Positions 26,659-34,188 of a DNA stretch of 34,188 nt are shown here, in pieces (the stretch's first letter is position 1; every line of letters begins with the position of its first letter). The DNA is taken from the IMG/VR virus record IMGVR_UViG_3300035698_004138, positions 1-34,188 of that record. One strand, 5' to 3'. Source of the DNA: a virus. Both the position numbers and the translations under genes were made by a program. A model generated the notes under the pieces. It ran no database searches. It saw nothing but the letters and a program-made list of their open reading frames with translations, and was not told where the DNA came from.

Positions 26659-27501
26659 ATGAATATGTTTAAAAACGCAGAACAAGTTGGGAAGCTAATG
26701 AAAGAAGCCATTAGTGCTGGCCCAAAAGGAATGCAAGCTATCGCTGCTGCGATTAATGGTATCTTGGAAGATTACGTTGATGAACGTGCTATCGTCCCTG
26801 AGATTCTGACTTTAGATAATACTAATGGTGAAAACCCTGAGTATTCGGTTGTTGAGGATGGCAAGGCTTATTTTATTGCCGAGAACTCAAAACCAATTGA
26901 AGATCCAACTGAAGGCGCATTGGTTCGCCCTTCTATTCTGCGACTACACTCTAATCCAACTATGGATATTGGCGTGTTTGAGCGTGGTCAGGTTGGTAAA
27001 ATGAATGAGCGCATTGCAAATGCTGGTTTGGCAATGGTTAAAGAAGAGAATAGTTATGTGACTACTCTCTTGTCTGCTGCCTTAACTGCACTTGGCGCAA
27101 CCAACACTGTTAATGTTGCTGGTGGCTCATTAACTATGGACGCTTTAGATTCTGCTATTGCTTTTGTTGAAGACAATGGCCTAAGAGTCAAGTCTATTCT
27201 AACTCGCGGTCAACATCTATCCTCGTTTAGTGCTTCTGATTCTCCGAATTTTTCTGATGCACAAGCTTTGCGCGGCGCGGTAAAAACCTATCATGGTGCG
27301 ACTGTTTACAATGTCCCTCAAATGGCTGCCGATCAAGTCATTTTAATTCCAGATAAACAAATTGGTTGGGCACCTGTGCGGTCTAAAATGAAGACCAAAG
27401 CCTCTTCTACTGGTTTCCAGATGGATATTTTATCTTGGAAGGAAGTTGGTTATGCTTTAACGCTAGCTAAATATTCTGCCCAAGTTACTATTACACCATA
27501 A
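26659..27501 (+). CDS. Major capsid protein (HK97-fold type)
   Basis: 280 residues. Position after protease/scaffold and decoration-like genes, very strong ribosome binding site (GGAGG 26646-26650) and composition point to the major capsid protein. Pattern elements of the fold: a long N-terminal helical stretch (about 1-38), an E-loop-like region (LTLDNTNGENPEYSVVEDGK), a spine-helix-like AIAFVEDNGLRVKSILT and a C-terminal strand segment (SWKEVGYALTLAKYSAQV). Weak sequence conservation in this family means the call rests on context and general pattern. Confidence 0.82.
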   Translation: MNMFKNAEQVGKLMKEAISAGPKGMQAIAAAINGILEDYVDERAIVPEILTLDNTNGENPEYSVVEDGKAYFIAENSKPIEDPTEGALVRPSILRLHSNPTMDIGVFERGQVGKMNERIANAGLAMVKEENSYVTTLLSAALTALGATNTVNVAGGSLTMDALDSAIAFVEDNGLRVKSILTRGQHLSSFSASDSPNFSDAQALRGAVKTYHGATVYNVPQMAADQVILIPDKQIGWAPVRSKMKTKASSTGFQMDILSWKEVGYALTLAKYSAQVTITP

Positions 27502-27512
27502 GGGGGTTTATC

Positions 27513-27929
27513 ATGGCTATTACATTAACGAACCAACTAGCGACTAAGTTGTTTATTCCAGACGCAACGACTTCTGGTGCTGGCTTAGAGTTTGCCCCGA
27601 ATGGCGAGACTGGAGAGGATCAGGTTGTTTATAAAATGACATCCAGTCTTTTAACCGCCCTTGCTAATGGTCACTTATCTAGTGCCGGTACAAGCGATGA
27701 TGTAAAAATCTTAGCGGAACAAACCGGAACTGGCACAGAACAAACCATTGCTCATGGCTTGGGGTCAACTCCATCCTATGTTGGCGCTATGGTTAGCGAA
27801 GTTCCTGACACTGGTTATGGTGGCGGTAGTGCCAAGCCCTTTGACGTGGTTGAAGGTGTTCATGATGCTACTAATGTTAAGTTTACAGTTGCAACAGGTG
27901 TGAAGTATAAACCTATTGTAGTTGGCTAG
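27513..27929 (+). CDS. Small structural protein, 138 aa
   Basis: Starts after AAGGGGGTTTATC. Threonine/glycine-rich beta protein (AEQTGTGTEQTIAHGLGSTP), the last segment being a motif common in phage virion beta-domain proteins (fibre or decoration type). Directly follows the capsid gene and ends the visible virion block. Could be a second decoration protein or head fibre. Confidence 0.6.
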   Translation: MAITLTNQLATKLFIPDATTSGAGLEFAPNGETGEDQVVYKMTSSLLTALANGHLSSAGTSDDVKILAEQTGTGTEQTIAHGLGSTPSYVGAMVSEVPDTGYGGGSAKPFDVVEGVHDATNVKFTVATGVKYKPIVVG

Positions 27930-27949: not shown

Positions 27950-30865
27950 ATGAAGGGTAACAAACCTGTCATTGCCATAATTGGCGAGTCGTTTTCGGTC
28001 GGCGGGGCCGAAAGAATGACTGTCGATATGGCCAACGCTTTAAATGAGGAATATTATACTCATTTGGTCTTGACTATATCTGACAAAGGGGTTAATAAAG
28101 CTCACCTAAATAAGAAAATTGACTATAAGTTAACGGCCTCTGCTAAGAATTTAGTAGGGGCTTTAACTTATGTCCAACACGACATGGTAATTTTTAATAA
28201 TTGCCGATCTGTTTTAAAAGTATTAGACGAATTAAACAACCATCCCAAAAGGCCAAAGACTATTGTTTCCATGGTTCATGGCAGCAATAAATTATCATTA
28301 GACTTAATACCAGACCATCCATGTATCGATAGGGTGTTAACGGTTTCAGATAAAGCCAGGATTGGAATTGAGAAACACCTACCATATTGGGCTGGCAAGA
28401 TTGATGTAATACAGAACTACGTTGATTCTAGTCTCTTTAAGCCTGTTAATAGAAATAATTTAGACGTAGAGATTGATGGCTGGTCAAGAGATTCTAAGAT
28501 ACTAGGCTATTGTGGTAGGTTTTCTGGTGAGAAGTCTTTAATATCTTTGGTTACAATTCTTAATAAATTAAAAAGCATCGATCAATCATGGAAGCTATTA
28601 ATGATTGGCGGCATAGATGAAGATGTTGATGTGTTTTTAGATTACTGGAAAAAAGAAAAAGCATCTGTTGAGAATATGATTAATCAGTATGGGCTAGGGG
28701 ATGATGTATTAATTACTGACAGTGTTGAAGATCCAGAAAACTACTATCCACTGATTGATGTGTTTGCATTAACCAGTTGTTATGAGGGTAGCCCCTTGGT
28801 TATACAAGAGGCCATGGCTTGTGGCTTGCCTGTTGTGTCTACTAATGTCGGTGATGCTGAAGAAGTTATTTATGGCGCTAACTGTGGTTATATTGTTGAT
28901 AAGAAAAAACAAGACCTTGATGACGTAGAAACAAATCAATTTGTATCATTAGTAATTGAATCTTATAAAAACAAAAAAATGTTTGGCGAAAATGCTAGAG
29001 GTTGGATTGTTAAAAACAGATCAATTGATTCTTTTGACAAAAACATAAAAGAATATATATTAAATCCAAACATATTTAAGGGTGAAAAAAAAGAGAATAA
29101 AACAAAAAGATCAAAACCCAATAGTGTTTGTTTGATTCCAGATCAGCCGGGATGGGCCTTTGATAGAATATCAAATCTTATTAAGTCTAAGTTGTCACAT
29201 AAATATAATTTTAAGATATCTTATTTGCAAGACTTAATAAGAAACAACACAAAAGAAGATCGGGGAATTTTATTTTGGTACAACAGCATAAATGGAAATG
29301 TTATCAACAAAAAAGATAGTATACCATGTATATATGATGGTGTCTCATGGGGCGATTTAGACATATCAAATTTGGCAAATAGTGCCAAGGCGATAGCTGT
29401 AGCAAATAAAAAATTAAAAAAAATAGTTTTAAAAAATAAAGATGTAATTAAAAATAAAACAAAAATATTTGAAATACAAGACGGTGTTGACACCTCTGTT
29501 TTTTATTCAAACAAAACAAAAAACAAAAAACAAAAAATACAAGTAGGGTGGACTGGAAACTCAAAATTAAAATTTAAAAATACTGACGTGAAGGGTTTTT
29601 GGATAATACAAAAAGCGATGAGTCTAACATCGGATATTGCCGATTGGCATATTGTAGATAGAGATGTTAATGGTATTCCGTTTGACAAAATGCCAGAATG
29701 GTATAATGGTCTTGATATTATAACCTGTATGTCAACAGAAGAGGGTACGCCGAATCCACTACTCGAAGGCTTGGCCTGTGGGTGTTTGCCCGTTATGACA
29801 AATGTTGGGTTGGCTCAAGAGTTGATTGATGATGGCTGTCAAATAGAAATAATAGAGCGAAGTGTTGATTCTTTGGTTTCAAAAATAAAACACATTAGTA
29901 AAAACAAAAGCTTGATTCATTGTGCAAAAGATAAAAACATTCCAATTGTAAAAGAAAAATGGGATTGGAATATTAGAATAAAGAATTGGGAAAAAGTTAT
30001 TGATTTCTATTTGGACAATAAAAAAGAACCATTAGAAAGAAAACATAAAACAGATTTGTCAAATGATGTTACTGTTTTTGTTACAACTATTGGTGCTGTT
30101 GACTATAAACACTGTATAGAGTGTTTAGAGAATCAAGATTGTAAATTTAATATTGAGGTAATAAAGAACGTATCGCCAATGAATGCAGCTTTTCAAAAAA
30201 TGATAGATAATTGTAAAACCAAATATTACATTCAGGTTGATGAAGATATGATGCTCTATCCACATGCGGTTAGGACAATGCATGATCGAATATTAAAAGA
30301 ACCTGACACAACCGCCATACTTGTTCATGGGCTTCATGATGTTTTTATAGACATGAATATAACTGGCGTGAAAATATATAAACATAGTATAATAAAAAAA
30401 TTCCCATATAGCGTCAATGGTTTTTCGTGCGAAACAGATCAGTTAAAAAAATTAAATAATTCTGGATTTGGTATTAAGTTTTATTATAACGGATTGATCA
30501 ACACAATAGACGATACCGTCATGGGCGACTTAAATGAACACTGGGATCAATGGGGAGTGTTTGAAAAATATAGTAGAGATATGCAAAAACTAAAAAGAGA
30601 TCCAGATAATCAAGGCTGGATGTCTATGTTGCTTCCTATTTTTATTGACAAAATCAAATGTGGATATGATAATATTGCGCTATATGCTATACTTGGCGCT
30701 ATAGTTGGTCTTGCATCGCCCTTGCTTAAGGACAAGGAAAAAGACTTTACAAGGCCAGAGTTTCTGCCGGTATTTAATCTTTTAAAAGAAATTCTAAAAA
30801 ATAATTTTAATGAAAACGTAAGCCTAAAAATTAAGAACATAAAAAGAAATATTGGTAATTTATGA
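27950..30865 (+). CDS. Three-domain glycosyltransferase (GT4-GT4-GT2)
   Basis: 971 residues. Domain 1 (about 1-370) is a GT-B/GT4 enzyme: IGESFSVGGAERM near the N-terminus and SCYEGSPLVIQEAMACGLPVV with the E-x7-E donor-binding motif. Domain 2 (about 390-690) is another GT-B domain with STEEGTPNPLLEGLACGCLP. Domain 3 (about 705-971) is GT-A/GT2-like with VDEDMM as the DxD metal site. The first and third appear catalytically intact. No clear Shine-Dalgarno precedes ATG 27950. Likely builds or modifies a glycan, on virion proteins or host surface; acceptor unknown. Confidence 0.88.
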   Translation: MKGNKPVIAIIGESFSVGGAERMTVDMANALNEEYYTHLVLTISDKGVNKAHLNKKIDYKLTASAKNLVGALTYVQHDMVIFNNCRSVLKVLDELNNHPKRPKTIVSMVHGSNKLSLDLIPDHPCIDRVLTVSDKARIGIEKHLPYWAGKIDVIQNYVDSSLFKPVNRNNLDVEIDGWSRDSKILGYCGRFSGEKSLISLVTILNKLKSIDQSWKLLMIGGIDEDVDVFLDYWKKEKASVENMINQYGLGDDVLITDSVEDPENYYPLIDVFALTSCYEGSPLVIQEAMACGLPVVSTNVGDAEEVIYGANCGYIVDKKKQDLDDVETNQFVSLVIESYKNKKMFGENARGWIVKNRSIDSFDKNIKEYILNPNIFKGEKKENKTKRSKPNSVCLIPDQPGWAFDRISNLIKSKLSHKYNFKISYLQDLIRNNTKEDRGILFWYNSINGNVINKKDSIPCIYDGVSWGDLDISNLANSAKAIAVANKKLKKIVLKNKDVIKNKTKIFEIQDGVDTSVFYSNKTKNKKQKIQVGWTGNSKLKFKNTDVKGFWIIQKAMSLTSDIADWHIVDRDVNGIPFDKMPEWYNGLDIITCMSTEEGTPNPLLEGLACGCLPVMTNVGLAQELIDDGCQIEIIERSVDSLVSKIKHISKNKSLIHCAKDKNIPIVKEKWDWNIRIKNWEKVIDFYLDNKKEPLERKHKTDLSNDVTVFVTTIGAVDYKHCIECLENQDCKFNIEVIKNVSPMNAAFQKMIDNCKTKYYIQVDEDMMLYPHAVRTMHDRILKEPDTTAILVHGLHDVFIDMNITGVKIYKHSIIKKFPYSVNGFSCETDQLKKLNNSGFGIKFYYNGLINTIDDTVMGDLNEHWDQWGVFEKYSRDMQKLKRDPDNQGWMSMLLPIFIDKIKCGYDNIALYAILGAIVGLASPLLKDKEKDFTRPEFLPVFNLLKEILKNNFNENVSLKIKNIKRNIGNL

Positions 30866-31794
30866 TTAAAGAAAAAACAAATGGACCATACTCGCTAAAT
30901 GTTTATTTAACATATAAGTGCAATCAATTGTGTCCTTTTTGCAAAAGGCAACAATCTGGATATGTTAATAGCCAAGCCAAAGACTTTGATGCACAGATGG
31001 CCAGTGATGTTATTTCAAGGTTTCAAGATTTAAAAAATATATGTATAGCTGGTTTTGGCGAGCCTCTTTTGTCTAATAGTTTGTATAAAGTAATAGATGT
31101 TTTTGTTTCAAAAAGAATATCGACAAATGTTATTACAAACGGAGTGTTGTTAAAAAAACATGCGACAAGAATTTTAAACTCAGGCTTATCATCTATTTCT
31201 GTTTCTGTTAATGCCTCAAACAAAGAAGAAAGAAAAACAATAACAGGACTAGACTCTTGGGATGATATGATAAGTGGAATTAAAATTTTGATTTCTGGCG
31301 GCATGGATGTTTCTACTTCGTTTGTTATTACAAAAAACAATTGGATGAACATACCATCTTATTTTAAGGAAATGTCATACCTTGGAATTGGATACAGGAT
31401 AGACTTACTTAATCTGTTGCCCCATTCTGATGACGAATTAGATATAAATAATTTTAATAATTTAACAATAAAAGATACCGATACAGACATATTATGTGAG
31501 ATAGATAAGTTTAAAAAAATGGGTGGAAGCCAAAATGTTAGAAATTGGCCGGTTGGATCACCAACAGGAAAGATAGATAAGTCATCTTGTCGGTCGCCAT
31601 TTAATACAATAGGAATAGATGGAGATGGAAATTGCACGTCATGCTCTAGGGTATATGGTCCTTCTGATATGGATGCAAACATAAAAGATTTAGACGTTTG
31701 GAATAGCGAGTCATTTATTAATTTGCGTAGTGAGGTATCTGGAGAAAAAGAAAAAAAGATTCTTTGTAGTAAGTGTTGGGGCCACTTGCAATGA
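30862..31794 (+). CDS. Radical SAM protein with SPASM-like C-terminus
   Basis: 310 residues. CNQLCPFC (C20-x3-C24-x2-C27) is the radical SAM 4Fe-4S motif, followed by the GFGEPLLS strand and the NGVLLKKHA region typical of the barrel. The C-terminal part has cysteines at CRSPF, CTSC and CSKC (about 243, 259, 262, 301, 304), a SPASM/twitch-like auxiliary cluster set. Radical SAM enzymes near glycosyltransferases often modify sugars or peptides; the substrate here is unknown. ATG overlaps the previous stop (ATGA). Confidence 0.88.
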   Translation: MIKEKTNGPYSLNVYLTYKCNQLCPFCKRQQSGYVNSQAKDFDAQMASDVISRFQDLKNICIAGFGEPLLSNSLYKVIDVFVSKRISTNVITNGVLLKKHATRILNSGLSSISVSVNASNKEERKTITGLDSWDDMISGIKILISGGMDVSTSFVITKNNWMNIPSYFKEMSYLGIGYRIDLLNLLPHSDDELDINNFNNLTIKDTDTDILCEIDKFKKMGGSQNVRNWPVGSPTGKIDKSSCRSPFNTIGIDGDGNCTSCSRVYGPSDMDANIKDLDVWNSESFINLRSEVSGEKEKKILCSKCWGHLQ

Positions 31795-32480
31795 AAAACA
31801 AATGGGAGAATGGATTGTTAAGCGAACTGGGTTATTGGAAGTGGACAATGAAACAACCATGTTATGGAGAAATGAAAGACAGGGACAGTAAAAACAAACC
31901 GCTTGATTCTTTTGTTCGGTCCTTGTGTCCACAAAACACTAAAGAAAAAATTAAGATACTTGATGTTGGTTGCGGTCCCTTAAGTCCATTAGGTTTGGTT
32001 TCTGATATACAGATACAGATAATCGGTGTTGACCCACTTGCTGATAGGTATAAGGAAATGCTTATTAAGCATAGCGTAAACACAAATAGCGAATTGTTTC
32101 CAGTGCAAGGCAAGGCCGAGTCTCTTGTTTTGCTTTTTGGAAACAACATGTTTGACGTAACCGTATCATTTAACAGTCTTGACCATATGGCTGATCCACT
32201 TGTGGCTATAAGACAAATGACTAGAGTTACAAAACATGGTGGCGTTATTTATGTTTGGTGTTATGAAAACGAGGGTTTGTTTGAGGATTATAAAGGGTTA
32301 CACCAATGGAATGTTGAATTAAAAGATAACCATGTTTTTGTGTGGAGAGAAAACTATAGGAAATCATTAGATGAAATAGTTAATGGTTTTGCAGAAATTA
32401 AAAAAACATGGAAAAGTAAAAAACACAACAAAGATATTGTGCATTTTATTTTAACTATAGACAAGAAAGAGATAGTCTAA
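31791..32480 (+). CDS. Class I SAM-dependent methyltransferase
   Basis: 229 residues. ILDVGCGPLSP (56-66) is motif I of the Rossmann methyltransferase fold; GVDP (motif II) and SFNSLDHMADPL (motif IV-like) follow, a pattern of the Methyltransf_11 group acting on small molecules, lipids or sugars. ATG 31791 overlaps the radical SAM stop (ATGA), so the two are coupled. Probably methylates the product of the cassette. Confidence 0.85.
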   Translation: MKNKWENGLLSELGYWKWTMKQPCYGEMKDRDSKNKPLDSFVRSLCPQNTKEKIKILDVGCGPLSPLGLVSDIQIQIIGVDPLADRYKEMLIKHSVNTNSELFPVQGKAESLVLLFGNNMFDVTVSFNSLDHMADPLVAIRQMTRVTKHGGVIYVWCYENEGLFEDYKGLHQWNVELKDNHVFVWRENYRKSLDEIVNGFAEIKKTWKSKKHNKDIVHFILTIDKKEIV

Positions 32481-33536
32481 ATGGAACACATAGGAAACAT
32501 TAATAAAAACATTTTTGTTCCCGTTAATTGGATTTACTCAGAAGACAAAAGCATGCAGATGATTAAATCTAGTGCTATTCCATTTTTTAAACGATTACTG
32601 AATGGAGAAATTGTTAATCCGCATGATGTTGAGTTTCTTTGTTGGTATGCTAAATCGTTATCAGACATAGGACAAGGATCATATGATTCAATTATAAATC
32701 AAAAATTTACTAACCTATTGTTTATGGTGGACCAGAGCAGGGTGAATGGTTTTGATTTTGAGTTGCCAGCATCGCTTGATGCAGATGGTAAGTTTAGGTT
32801 GTTAGATGGCCACCATAGGGCAACCATGGCTATCGCGGCTGGAGAGAAAAAATTAAACATAACAGTTAAACACGTTAGTCCTATGTGGTTAGATTTAAAC
32901 AATAAGTTATTTTCGGTATACAATAAAAAAACATTATATCAAGAAATAAATCATCCATGGTTTAATGATTGGGATGTTGCAAGAGTGGGAAGGCTTGGGG
33001 TTATTGAAAGGTTTATTAATTCTATTGGTCACAGTATAGAAAAAAGAGATTGTGCCGATGTTGGAAGTTGCACAGGGCACACTTGCAGAGGCTTGTCGAG
33101 GCTAGGCGGGATTGTATATGGTTTTGACTTAGACCCTAGAATTACATCGATAGCGGAATATTTAAACTTTGTATATCCAGATCAATATGTATCATATTAT
33201 TTACACTCAAATGCTATTGATCCAATTAAACACATAGGCAAGTTTGGAATCATTACATGTTTGTCATTATTGCATCATTTTTTATGGAAAGAAGGTGATG
33301 GTGCAAATGTTGTAAGGTTTAAAGAATGGCTATCTGTTTTTGGAGACTCTTCTGATTTGGTTATTATTGACACAACAGTGAACGGTGATATAAATTTAGA
33401 CACTAAAGAAATACCGTTTGACACAATTGGTTTTAAGAAATGGATGAAAGAAGTTATTGGTATAAAATCTATTGTTGAATTAGAAGTTAATGATGGAAGG
33501 CCAATGTATGCGTACTCTAAAAGGTTATCGTTTTAA
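32481..33536 (+). CDS. DGHHR (ParB/Srx-like) domain fused to methyltransferase
   Basis: 351 residues. N-terminal part contains LLDGHHRATMAIAAG (107-121), the ParB/sulfiredoxin-like DGxHR loop that binds nucleotide. The C-terminal half is a Rossmann methyltransferase: DVGSCTGHT (193-201), VYGFDLDPR (212-220), then CLSLLHHF. In the family, DGHHR-type domains appear in ParB, sulfiredoxin and kinases that phosphorylate small molecules such as serine (SerK), so the N-domain may use ATP. A two-step enzyme is plausible (inference). Begins right after the methyltransferase stop. Confidence 0.78.
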   Translation: MEHIGNINKNIFVPVNWIYSEDKSMQMIKSSAIPFFKRLLNGEIVNPHDVEFLCWYAKSLSDIGQGSYDSIINQKFTNLLFMVDQSRVNGFDFELPASLDADGKFRLLDGHHRATMAIAAGEKKLNITVKHVSPMWLDLNNKLFSVYNKKTLYQEINHPWFNDWDVARVGRLGVIERFINSIGHSIEKRDCADVGSCTGHTCRGLSRLGGIVYGFDLDPRITSIAEYLNFVYPDQYVSYYLHSNAIDPIKHIGKFGIITCLSLLHHFLWKEGDGANVVRFKEWLSVFGDSSDLVIIDTTVNGDINLDTKEIPFDTIGFKKWMKEVIGIKSIVELEVNDGRPMYAYSKRLSF

Positions 33537-34188
33537 TGGAACACCTTAATTTTATATTTGCGGCAAACTGTATTATTAGAAATGTAAAACTACCAAGCTT
33601 TGCAGCCCATACAAACGGTAGGGTTTATTCAGACATGTTTACAGATGGTCTTGTTAGGCTATTAAGTGGATCTAAAATAGAACTGCACCCACAAGACAAG
33701 GCTATTTATTATAAAGAAAACAAAGAAAGAAAAAAATCACAATGGGATATTTTTAATCCAATATGTCCTGATTCTATTGATGGTATAATGTGGTCGCCAT
33801 ATACCGATTGTGTTAGTTTTGTTCCACAGGCAAGGTCTTTAGACTATGGTTCGTTTTATCCATATGTGCATAGCTCTATATATAAAACATTTGGATACAC
33901 GGGTGGTTTATCAGAGAATATAATAATATCTGTTTGGAAAGATTTTATTAACATAACTAAAGATATACCCAAAAAGGGATTGTTTATTTATCCAACAGAC
34001 TTTATAGATGATTGTGATAGCACGCACTTAAGAAACAAAACTAGGGTTGATGGGCTTCAGGCGTGCGCGGTAGATCTTTTTGCAAAAGCAGGGTGGAAGT
34101 TGTTTAAGCCAAGTGAACCGATCAAAATTTCAAATGATAATTGGTGGGCGCACCTTACTGACGATTCAATTTCCAATATGACTCATGA
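33536..34188 (+). CDS. Unknown protein, runs off the window end
   Basis: ATG 33536 overlaps the previous stop (TAATG) and the frame stays open for 217 codons to the end of the window. Aromatic- and aspartate-rich (GIMWSPYTDCVSFVPQARSL, DYGSFYPYVH, IYPTDFIDDCDSTHLRN). No motif recognised. Coupling to the methyltransferase fusion places it in the same cassette; it could be another modifying enzyme. Confidence 0.7.
   Translation, partial: MEHLNFIFAANCIIRNVKLPSFAAHTNGRVYSDMFTDGLVRLLSGSKIELHPQDKAIYYKENKERKKSQWDIFNPICPDSIDGIMWSPYTDCVSFVPQARSLDYGSFYPYVHSSIYKTFGYTGGLSENIIISVWKDFINITKDIPKKGLFIYPTDFIDDCDSTHLRNKTRVDGLQACAVDLFAKAGWKLFKPSEPIKISNDNWWAHLTDDSISNMTH

Follow-up and report, generated by a model that had tools for sequence, protein, structure and literature searches.

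The window analysed here comprises all 34,188 bases of a linear virus record in IMG/VR (IMGVR_UViG_3300035698_004138). Shortly after the major capsid gene, positions 27950-34188 of its + strand hold a cassette of four complete open reading frames (ORFs) and one open ORF, all tightly packed. On the basis of sequence and predicted structure, we read this region as a phage glycan-assembly cassette with a methyl-phosphate cap, most likely on a virion protein (probability about 0.55). What was computed is the gene set, the folds of its domains, the residues conserved, the repeated linkage and the position; every reaction, substrate, order and acceptor named below was inferred from these. A fused GT4-GT4-GT2D glycosyltransferase (GT) would add up to three sugars, and a radical S-adenosylmethionine (SAM) enzyme would alter a sugar through radical chemistry. 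A stand-alone methyltransferase would methylate. The putative ParB-fold domain of a 351-amino-acid (aa) protein, hereafter ParB-methyltransferase, would phosphorylate the terminal sugar, whose phosphate would be methylated by the attached WbdD-type domain, thereby capping the chain. The candidate acceptors would be virion proteins, namely the capsid protein or the adjacent small HGL protein. That the cassette synthesizes a glycan is highly likely, which supports a preliminary description of the region as a coherent biosynthetic set for a modified glycan with a nucleotide-dependent step.

The preliminary description labelled the 351-aa protein a DGHHR-methyltransferase. The protein also has a kinase-like front domain of its own, and the reading that fits it best, absent from that description, is a cap enzyme combining kinase and phosphate methyltransferase. 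In profile comparisons with the PDB, two separate stretches matched, one to WbdD (1.7e-13, methyltransferase) and one to SbnI (9e-4, DGHHR region). The methyltransferase half alone matched WbdD at 5e-16, with the next family at 3e-7, and the front domain alone had SbnI as its first match (1.6e-4). Pfam also placed Methyltransf_11 in this gene (2.9e-5). The model of the 351-aa protein (predicted local distance difference test, pLDDT, 75.8) had WbdD as top match both by Foldseek and by Z score (Z 18.2 over 195 residues, root-mean-square deviation 2.6); methyltransferases filled the list for the whole model, so the absence of ParB- and SerK-fold entries among the matches listed carries no weight.

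WbdD caps the Escherichia coli O9a antigen by phosphorylation of the last sugar followed by methylation of the phosphate (PMC3482155). Its residues H132, H133 and R203 are essential; they are said to confer the use of a phosphate nucleophile and to lack counterparts in the other sugar methyltransferases known (PMC3482155). Two differently made alignments place H265, H266 and R340 of the window protein at these positions. The alignment of the R203 region was confirmed with a WbdD segment identical in every letter to the PDB entry. Among 11 homologues, the R203 equivalent is kept in 10, at least one histidine in 10 and both histidines in six, and within the DGHHR motif R113 is kept in all 11 and H112 in 10. 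Because a WbdD-like methyltransferase with an aligned triad is joined to an SbnI-like front domain, the 351-aa protein probably caps a glycan with methyl phosphate. Phosphate methylation by the WbdD-type domain appears likely from the conserved residues, and the assignment of the ParB domain as the kinase is favoured with somewhat less confidence.

The window protein shares with WbdD the methyltransferase domain, the HH...R phosphate-methylating residues, the combination of a kinase or kinase-like domain with a methyltransferase in one chain, and the glycan setting. WbdD, however, carries a C-terminal eukaryotic-like kinase and a coiled-coil ruler, whereas the window protein has an N-terminal ParB/Srx-like domain and no ruler; its C-terminus is the methyltransferase end, with no eukaryotic-like kinase behind it. 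Unlike WbdD, it is phage-encoded beside capsid genes. ORF6-O7 of Klebsiella O7, an AmiN-like kinase fused to a methyltransferase, also makes a methyl-phosphate cap and shows that the kinase fold is exchangeable, but its methyltransferase is closest to CgnL and its chain contains a coiled coil and GT modules, unlike the window protein (PMC11231755). SbnI shares the DGxHR motif and matches the front domain better than any other PDB sequence, but SbnI and SerK (ParB/Srx fold) act on free serine and have no fused methyltransferase, and only a short stretch matches. Judged from the alignments, the ParB fold would probably be a third kinase fold for methyl-phosphate caps, beside those of WbdD and Klebsiella O7.

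Fusions of ParB-fold and methyltransferase domains are enriched in phages, where they have been interpreted as DNA methyltransferases, and bacterial examples bound ATP (PMC12704722). The cassette could accordingly be a DNA-hypermodification operon, with sugars and methyl phosphate placed on phage DNA bases and the ParB-methyltransferase acting on DNA; the window phage does encode a dCMP deaminase, a thymidylate synthase and a nucleotide phosphatase. This is improbable, given that the methyltransferase is of the WbdD type with phosphate-methylating residues present and that no base-oxidising or hydroxymethylating enzyme was recognised among the window genes searched. Moreover, one of 398 Pseudomonadota genomes encodes a cellular homologue of full length that has DGRHR, HH and R. 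It belongs to a surface-glycan locus whose other genes include those for Stealth phosphotransferase, GT4, GT2, sulfotransferase, an asparagine synthase-like protein and DegT (aminotransferase), and a glycan is therefore favoured over DNA as the target. The glycan-capping reading would give a concrete function to the phage fusions now read as DNA methyltransferases (PMC12704722).

Sugar transfer had correctly been ascribed to the first gene, although its product is not a single enzyme but three fused glycosyltransferases: GT4 (residues about 1-375), GT4-like (about 395-700) and a third domain named GT2D (707-950). Pfam GT group 1 (PF00534) matched twice (6.7e-37), and E-x7-E type motifs of GT4 enzymes lie within these matches (EGSPLVIQE at 279, EEGTPNPLLE at 597). 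GT2D reached no cut-off in Pfam, NCBIfam or PHROGs and matched no PDB sequence at E<=1. Its D-x-D is invariant in 5 and in 9 aligned sequences. The AlphaFold model of a GT2D-radical SAM fusion from another locus (L054; pLDDT 84.4) consists of a GT-A domain and a radical SAM domain, the former with Z 17.2 to a Leptospira GT and 15-16 to WrtF, B4GALNT1 and SpsA. As judged from model and alignment, GT2D is a GT-A-fold glycosyltransferase with a DxD motif.

The recurrence of GT2D was first traced by a DNA pattern for the motif IQVDEDM. A 44.8-kb virus (L013) carries a fused GT of the same type followed by radical SAM and ParB-methyltransferase genes, and in another virus (L004) GT2D is fused to a radical SAM domain. 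Profile scans returned 12 viral and 21 bacterial loci with GT2D. A radical SAM profile scan returned 15 loci, 13 of them distinct, and GT2D was present in the same protein or nearby in 10 of these 13. With each lineage counted once and the window included, GT2D occurs together with at least one partner, radical SAM or ParB-methyltransferase, in 15 distinct lineages. All three parts are found in seven (window, L023, L024, L031, L060, L061, L067), GT2D with radical SAM only in five (L030, L032, L058, L066 and, from the bin of a bacterial genome, the phage-like contig L054) and GT2D with ParB-methyltransferase only in three (L034, L026-L028, L033); L029 has GT2D and neither partner. In nine lineages the radical SAM and GT-A domains form a single protein. 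Conservation of gene order elsewhere, on which the earlier proposal had depended, was found: the order GT, radical SAM, methyltransferase, ParB-methyltransferase is identical in L067, and L023, L060 and L061 differ by the missing extra methyltransferase. A partner was present at 8 of 9 distinct viral GT2D loci compared with 0 of 20 bacterial ones (L054 excluded; Fisher p = 2e-6, with flanks of varying length). Since both co-occurrence and gene fusion repeat, the GT2D, radical SAM and ParB-methyltransferase proteins very probably work together. Chance clustering of ORFs was rejected, as the pairings recur across distinct viruses, and capture of a whole host polysaccharide locus was set aside in view of the partnerless bacterial loci. 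Nitrospira-type genomes (L045, L048-L053, L055) carry GT2D in giant proteins of about 1,100-2,300 aa without the phage partners.

In the second gene, Pfam identified Radical_SAM (PF04055, 5e-15) and SPASM just above its cut-off (1.8e-4; score 22.1, cut-off 21.5). Cysteines C20, C24, C27, C243, C261, C302 and C305 are invariant in seven sequences, a CxxxCxxC motif plus four cysteines suited to one auxiliary cluster, which in sequence corresponds to the twitch-type pattern. Full SPASM enzymes possess a seven-cysteine motif holding two clusters; only four C-terminal cysteines are conserved here. The twitch enzyme BtrN likewise has a single auxiliary cluster on four cysteines and oxidises an aminocyclitol (PMC9012708). 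The radical SAM domain of the L054 model is nearest to the sugar-nucleoside decarboxylase BlsE (Z 22.7), followed by PqqE, MoaA, SkfB and DesII, and its top Foldseek match is the sugar deaminase DesII. BtrN, BlsE and DesII share the radical SAM core with the cassette enzyme and act on sugars or cyclitols; unlike them, the cassette enzyme reaches no curated family cut-off and is fused or coupled to a GT-A domain. The BtrN-like cysteine pattern and the structural likeness to BlsE and DesII make a sugar substrate plausible, and the GT2D-radical SAM fusions suggest that the enzyme would act on the unit handled by GT2D. Peptides are frequent substrates of SPASM/twitch enzymes and the model matches include SuiB, SkfB and PqqE, so that the enzyme might instead modify a small protein such as HGL in the manner of a ribosomally synthesized and post-translationally modified peptide, with glycosylation next. 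We regard this as unlikely, since the best Z and the top Foldseek match both belong to sugar-type enzymes, fusion to the GT-A domain recurs in the nine lineages, and no precursor-peptide gene was identified. Two radical SAM relatives (L057, L062) lack a recognised GT2D; judged by eye, L057 has genes resembling those for GTs and CMP-sugar synthetases close by.

The virion as target is suggested by gene position and by the HGL protein. The cassette lies within the structural gene block in four lineages, downstream of capsid genes from three different PHROGs in the window, L034 and L030 and downstream of a tail sheath gene in L033. The gene immediately before the GT gene in the window, L034 and L033 encodes a small protein with a conserved H-G/D-L motif; the window protein has no family match, its L034 homologue was found by phmmer (1.6e-13) and the L033 protein shares the motif. 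A profile of the three found no further one among 896 ORFs. Virion glycosylation is known from the mycobacteriophages Che8 and Rita (cited in PMC11256854), in which phage GTs, as would be the case here, are linked to glycans of capsid proteins. That account mentions no radical SAM, kinase or cap chemistry of the kind seen or predicted in the window cassette, and in its phage the GT genes are found near the genome's 3' end, whereas the window cassette follows the capsid gene (PMC11256854).

Alternatively, the same enzymes could modify the surface glycan of the infected cell, an O-antigen or capsule, and so block superinfection or alter the antigen of the host. WbdD itself acts on an O-antigen (PMC3482155), and the cellular cap-enzyme homologue sits in a surface-glycan locus. 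The location inside the structural gene block and the linkage to the HGL protein speak against the host surface, as does the visible part of the cassette, in which no transporter, flippase or acyltransferase was recognised. This explanation is thus doubtful, though to a lesser degree than those involving DNA or peptides. The preliminary description had named virion and infected cell alike, with adsorption, immune evasion or superinfection control as possible uses; gene position favours the virion, for which as the target taken by itself we see an even chance.

Several findings weigh against a capped virion glycan. The SbnI match is weak and covers only about 36 residues. The histidine pair is incomplete in L034a (HR), L033 (YH), L060 (NH) and L061 (HG), and L034b has lost the entire H/H/R triad. 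The 351-aa model contains no long helix after the methyltransferase, so the coiled-coil ruler of published cap enzymes is missing and chain-length control is not expected. No sugar-donor synthesis was seen in the present fragment, and the HGL protein is limited to three lineages. L034b is the second of two tandem ParB-methyltransferase copies (L034:10699-12710); its sequence looks degenerate, and it may be a non-catalytic partner.

Taken at its widest, the proposal is a recurrent, undescribed phage virion-decoration system that joins a GT-A/radical SAM unit to a ParB-fold glycan kinase-phosphate methyltransferase, in which a third cap kinase fold would have been recruited independently and a ParB-fold kinase would, for the first time, act on glycans. 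In this full form it is tentative. If true, glycan capping would gain a new kinase fold; the cassette suggests that uncultured phages bear a virion glycan of rich chemistry, for which a candidate acceptor can be named.

Table 1. Positions of the cassette genes, their motifs and neighbouring genes in the window.
Feature	Position	Strand	Basis
Major capsid protein gene (neighbour; candidate glycan acceptor)	26659..27501	+	phrog_2522 major head protein, 1.5e-23
Small HGL protein, 138 aa, candidate acceptor/virion decoration protein	27513..27929	+	directly upstream of GT gene
Fused glycosyltransferase, 971 aa	27950..30865	+	PF00534 (two stretches), PF13524, GT2D profile
GT2D domain, GT-A fold, YYIQVDEDM motif	30068..30799	+	invariant D-x-D; homologue model
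Radical SAM enzyme, four conserved C-terminal cysteines (auxiliary-cluster pattern)	30862..31794	+	PF04055, SPASM
SAM-dependent methyltransferase	31791..32480	+	PF08241 (Methyltransf_11), 1.2e-11
ParB/Srx-like kinase-like domain + WbdD-type methyltransferase, 351 aa, proposed methyl-phosphate cap enzyme	32481..33536	+	PDB profile match, model
DGHHR motif, residues 109-113	32805..32819	+	SbnI aligned stretch reads DGVHR
H265-H266, aligned with WbdD H132-H133	33273..33278	+	alignments to WbdD
R340, aligned with WbdD R203 (RPMY in both)	33498..33500	+	alignments to WbdD
Partial gene 5, 217 aa visible, cut by contig end	33536..34188	+	open ORF

ORFs and junctions confirm the earlier observation that four complete genes and one partial gene overlap or abut. 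ATGA overlaps join GT and radical SAM (30862-30865) and radical SAM and methyltransferase (31791-31794). The latter applies to the ATG start of the methyltransferase, which was chosen from the sequence and overlaps the preceding stop; the listed ORF starts with GTG at 31773. The methyltransferase stop and the next ATG abut (32480/32481), and the last junction reads TAATG (33534-33538). Gene 5 matched no family significantly, gave no tblastn hit in phages and had no homologue in the fetched loci.

The cassette set recurs in uncultured phages unrelated to this one, but searches of 50,697 deposited phage records did not find it. When GenBank phages were searched by DNA and by tblastn, any matches were weak and generic, and scans with single proteins (radical SAM enzyme, ParB-methyltransferase, capsid protein) turned up no relative. 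The earlier statement that no described phage pathway has this combination thus holds for the GenBank phage records and for the literature searched for all parts. A ParB-methyltransferase profile had no match in 294 genomes of the phylum of L035, nor a radical SAM profile (E<=1e-40) in 198 genomes of the phylum of L043, both without a positive control. The ParB-methyltransferase alignment was too diverged to serve as a scan query, and hits in other bacterial genomes that covered just the methyltransferase were dismissed as generic. Because the collections were sampled by short-pattern scans, absence from them is weak evidence.

The window clearly derives from a tailed phage, with terminase, portal, head morphogenesis, capsid, primase/helicase, sliding clamp and thymidylate synthase genes. 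Its only close relative found, in a TerL search, is a single 6-kb contig identical to part of the window. Among the phage's own genes is one for a DNA polymerase III beta clamp (window:23386-24501; PF02767, 7.4e-15). Upstream of the capsid genes, a 454-aa protein (window:24843-26207) matches phrog_27806, labelled DNA methyltransferase, over residues 80-445 (1.6e-45) and has no Pfam methyltransferase match. Promoter-like matches in the window were fewer than expected from shuffling. A long run of 12-nt repeats (window:54-507; 24 registers reported) lies in an ORF open at the left end of the window and encodes a four-residue repeat of the kind SVWN/SVRA/SVGN.
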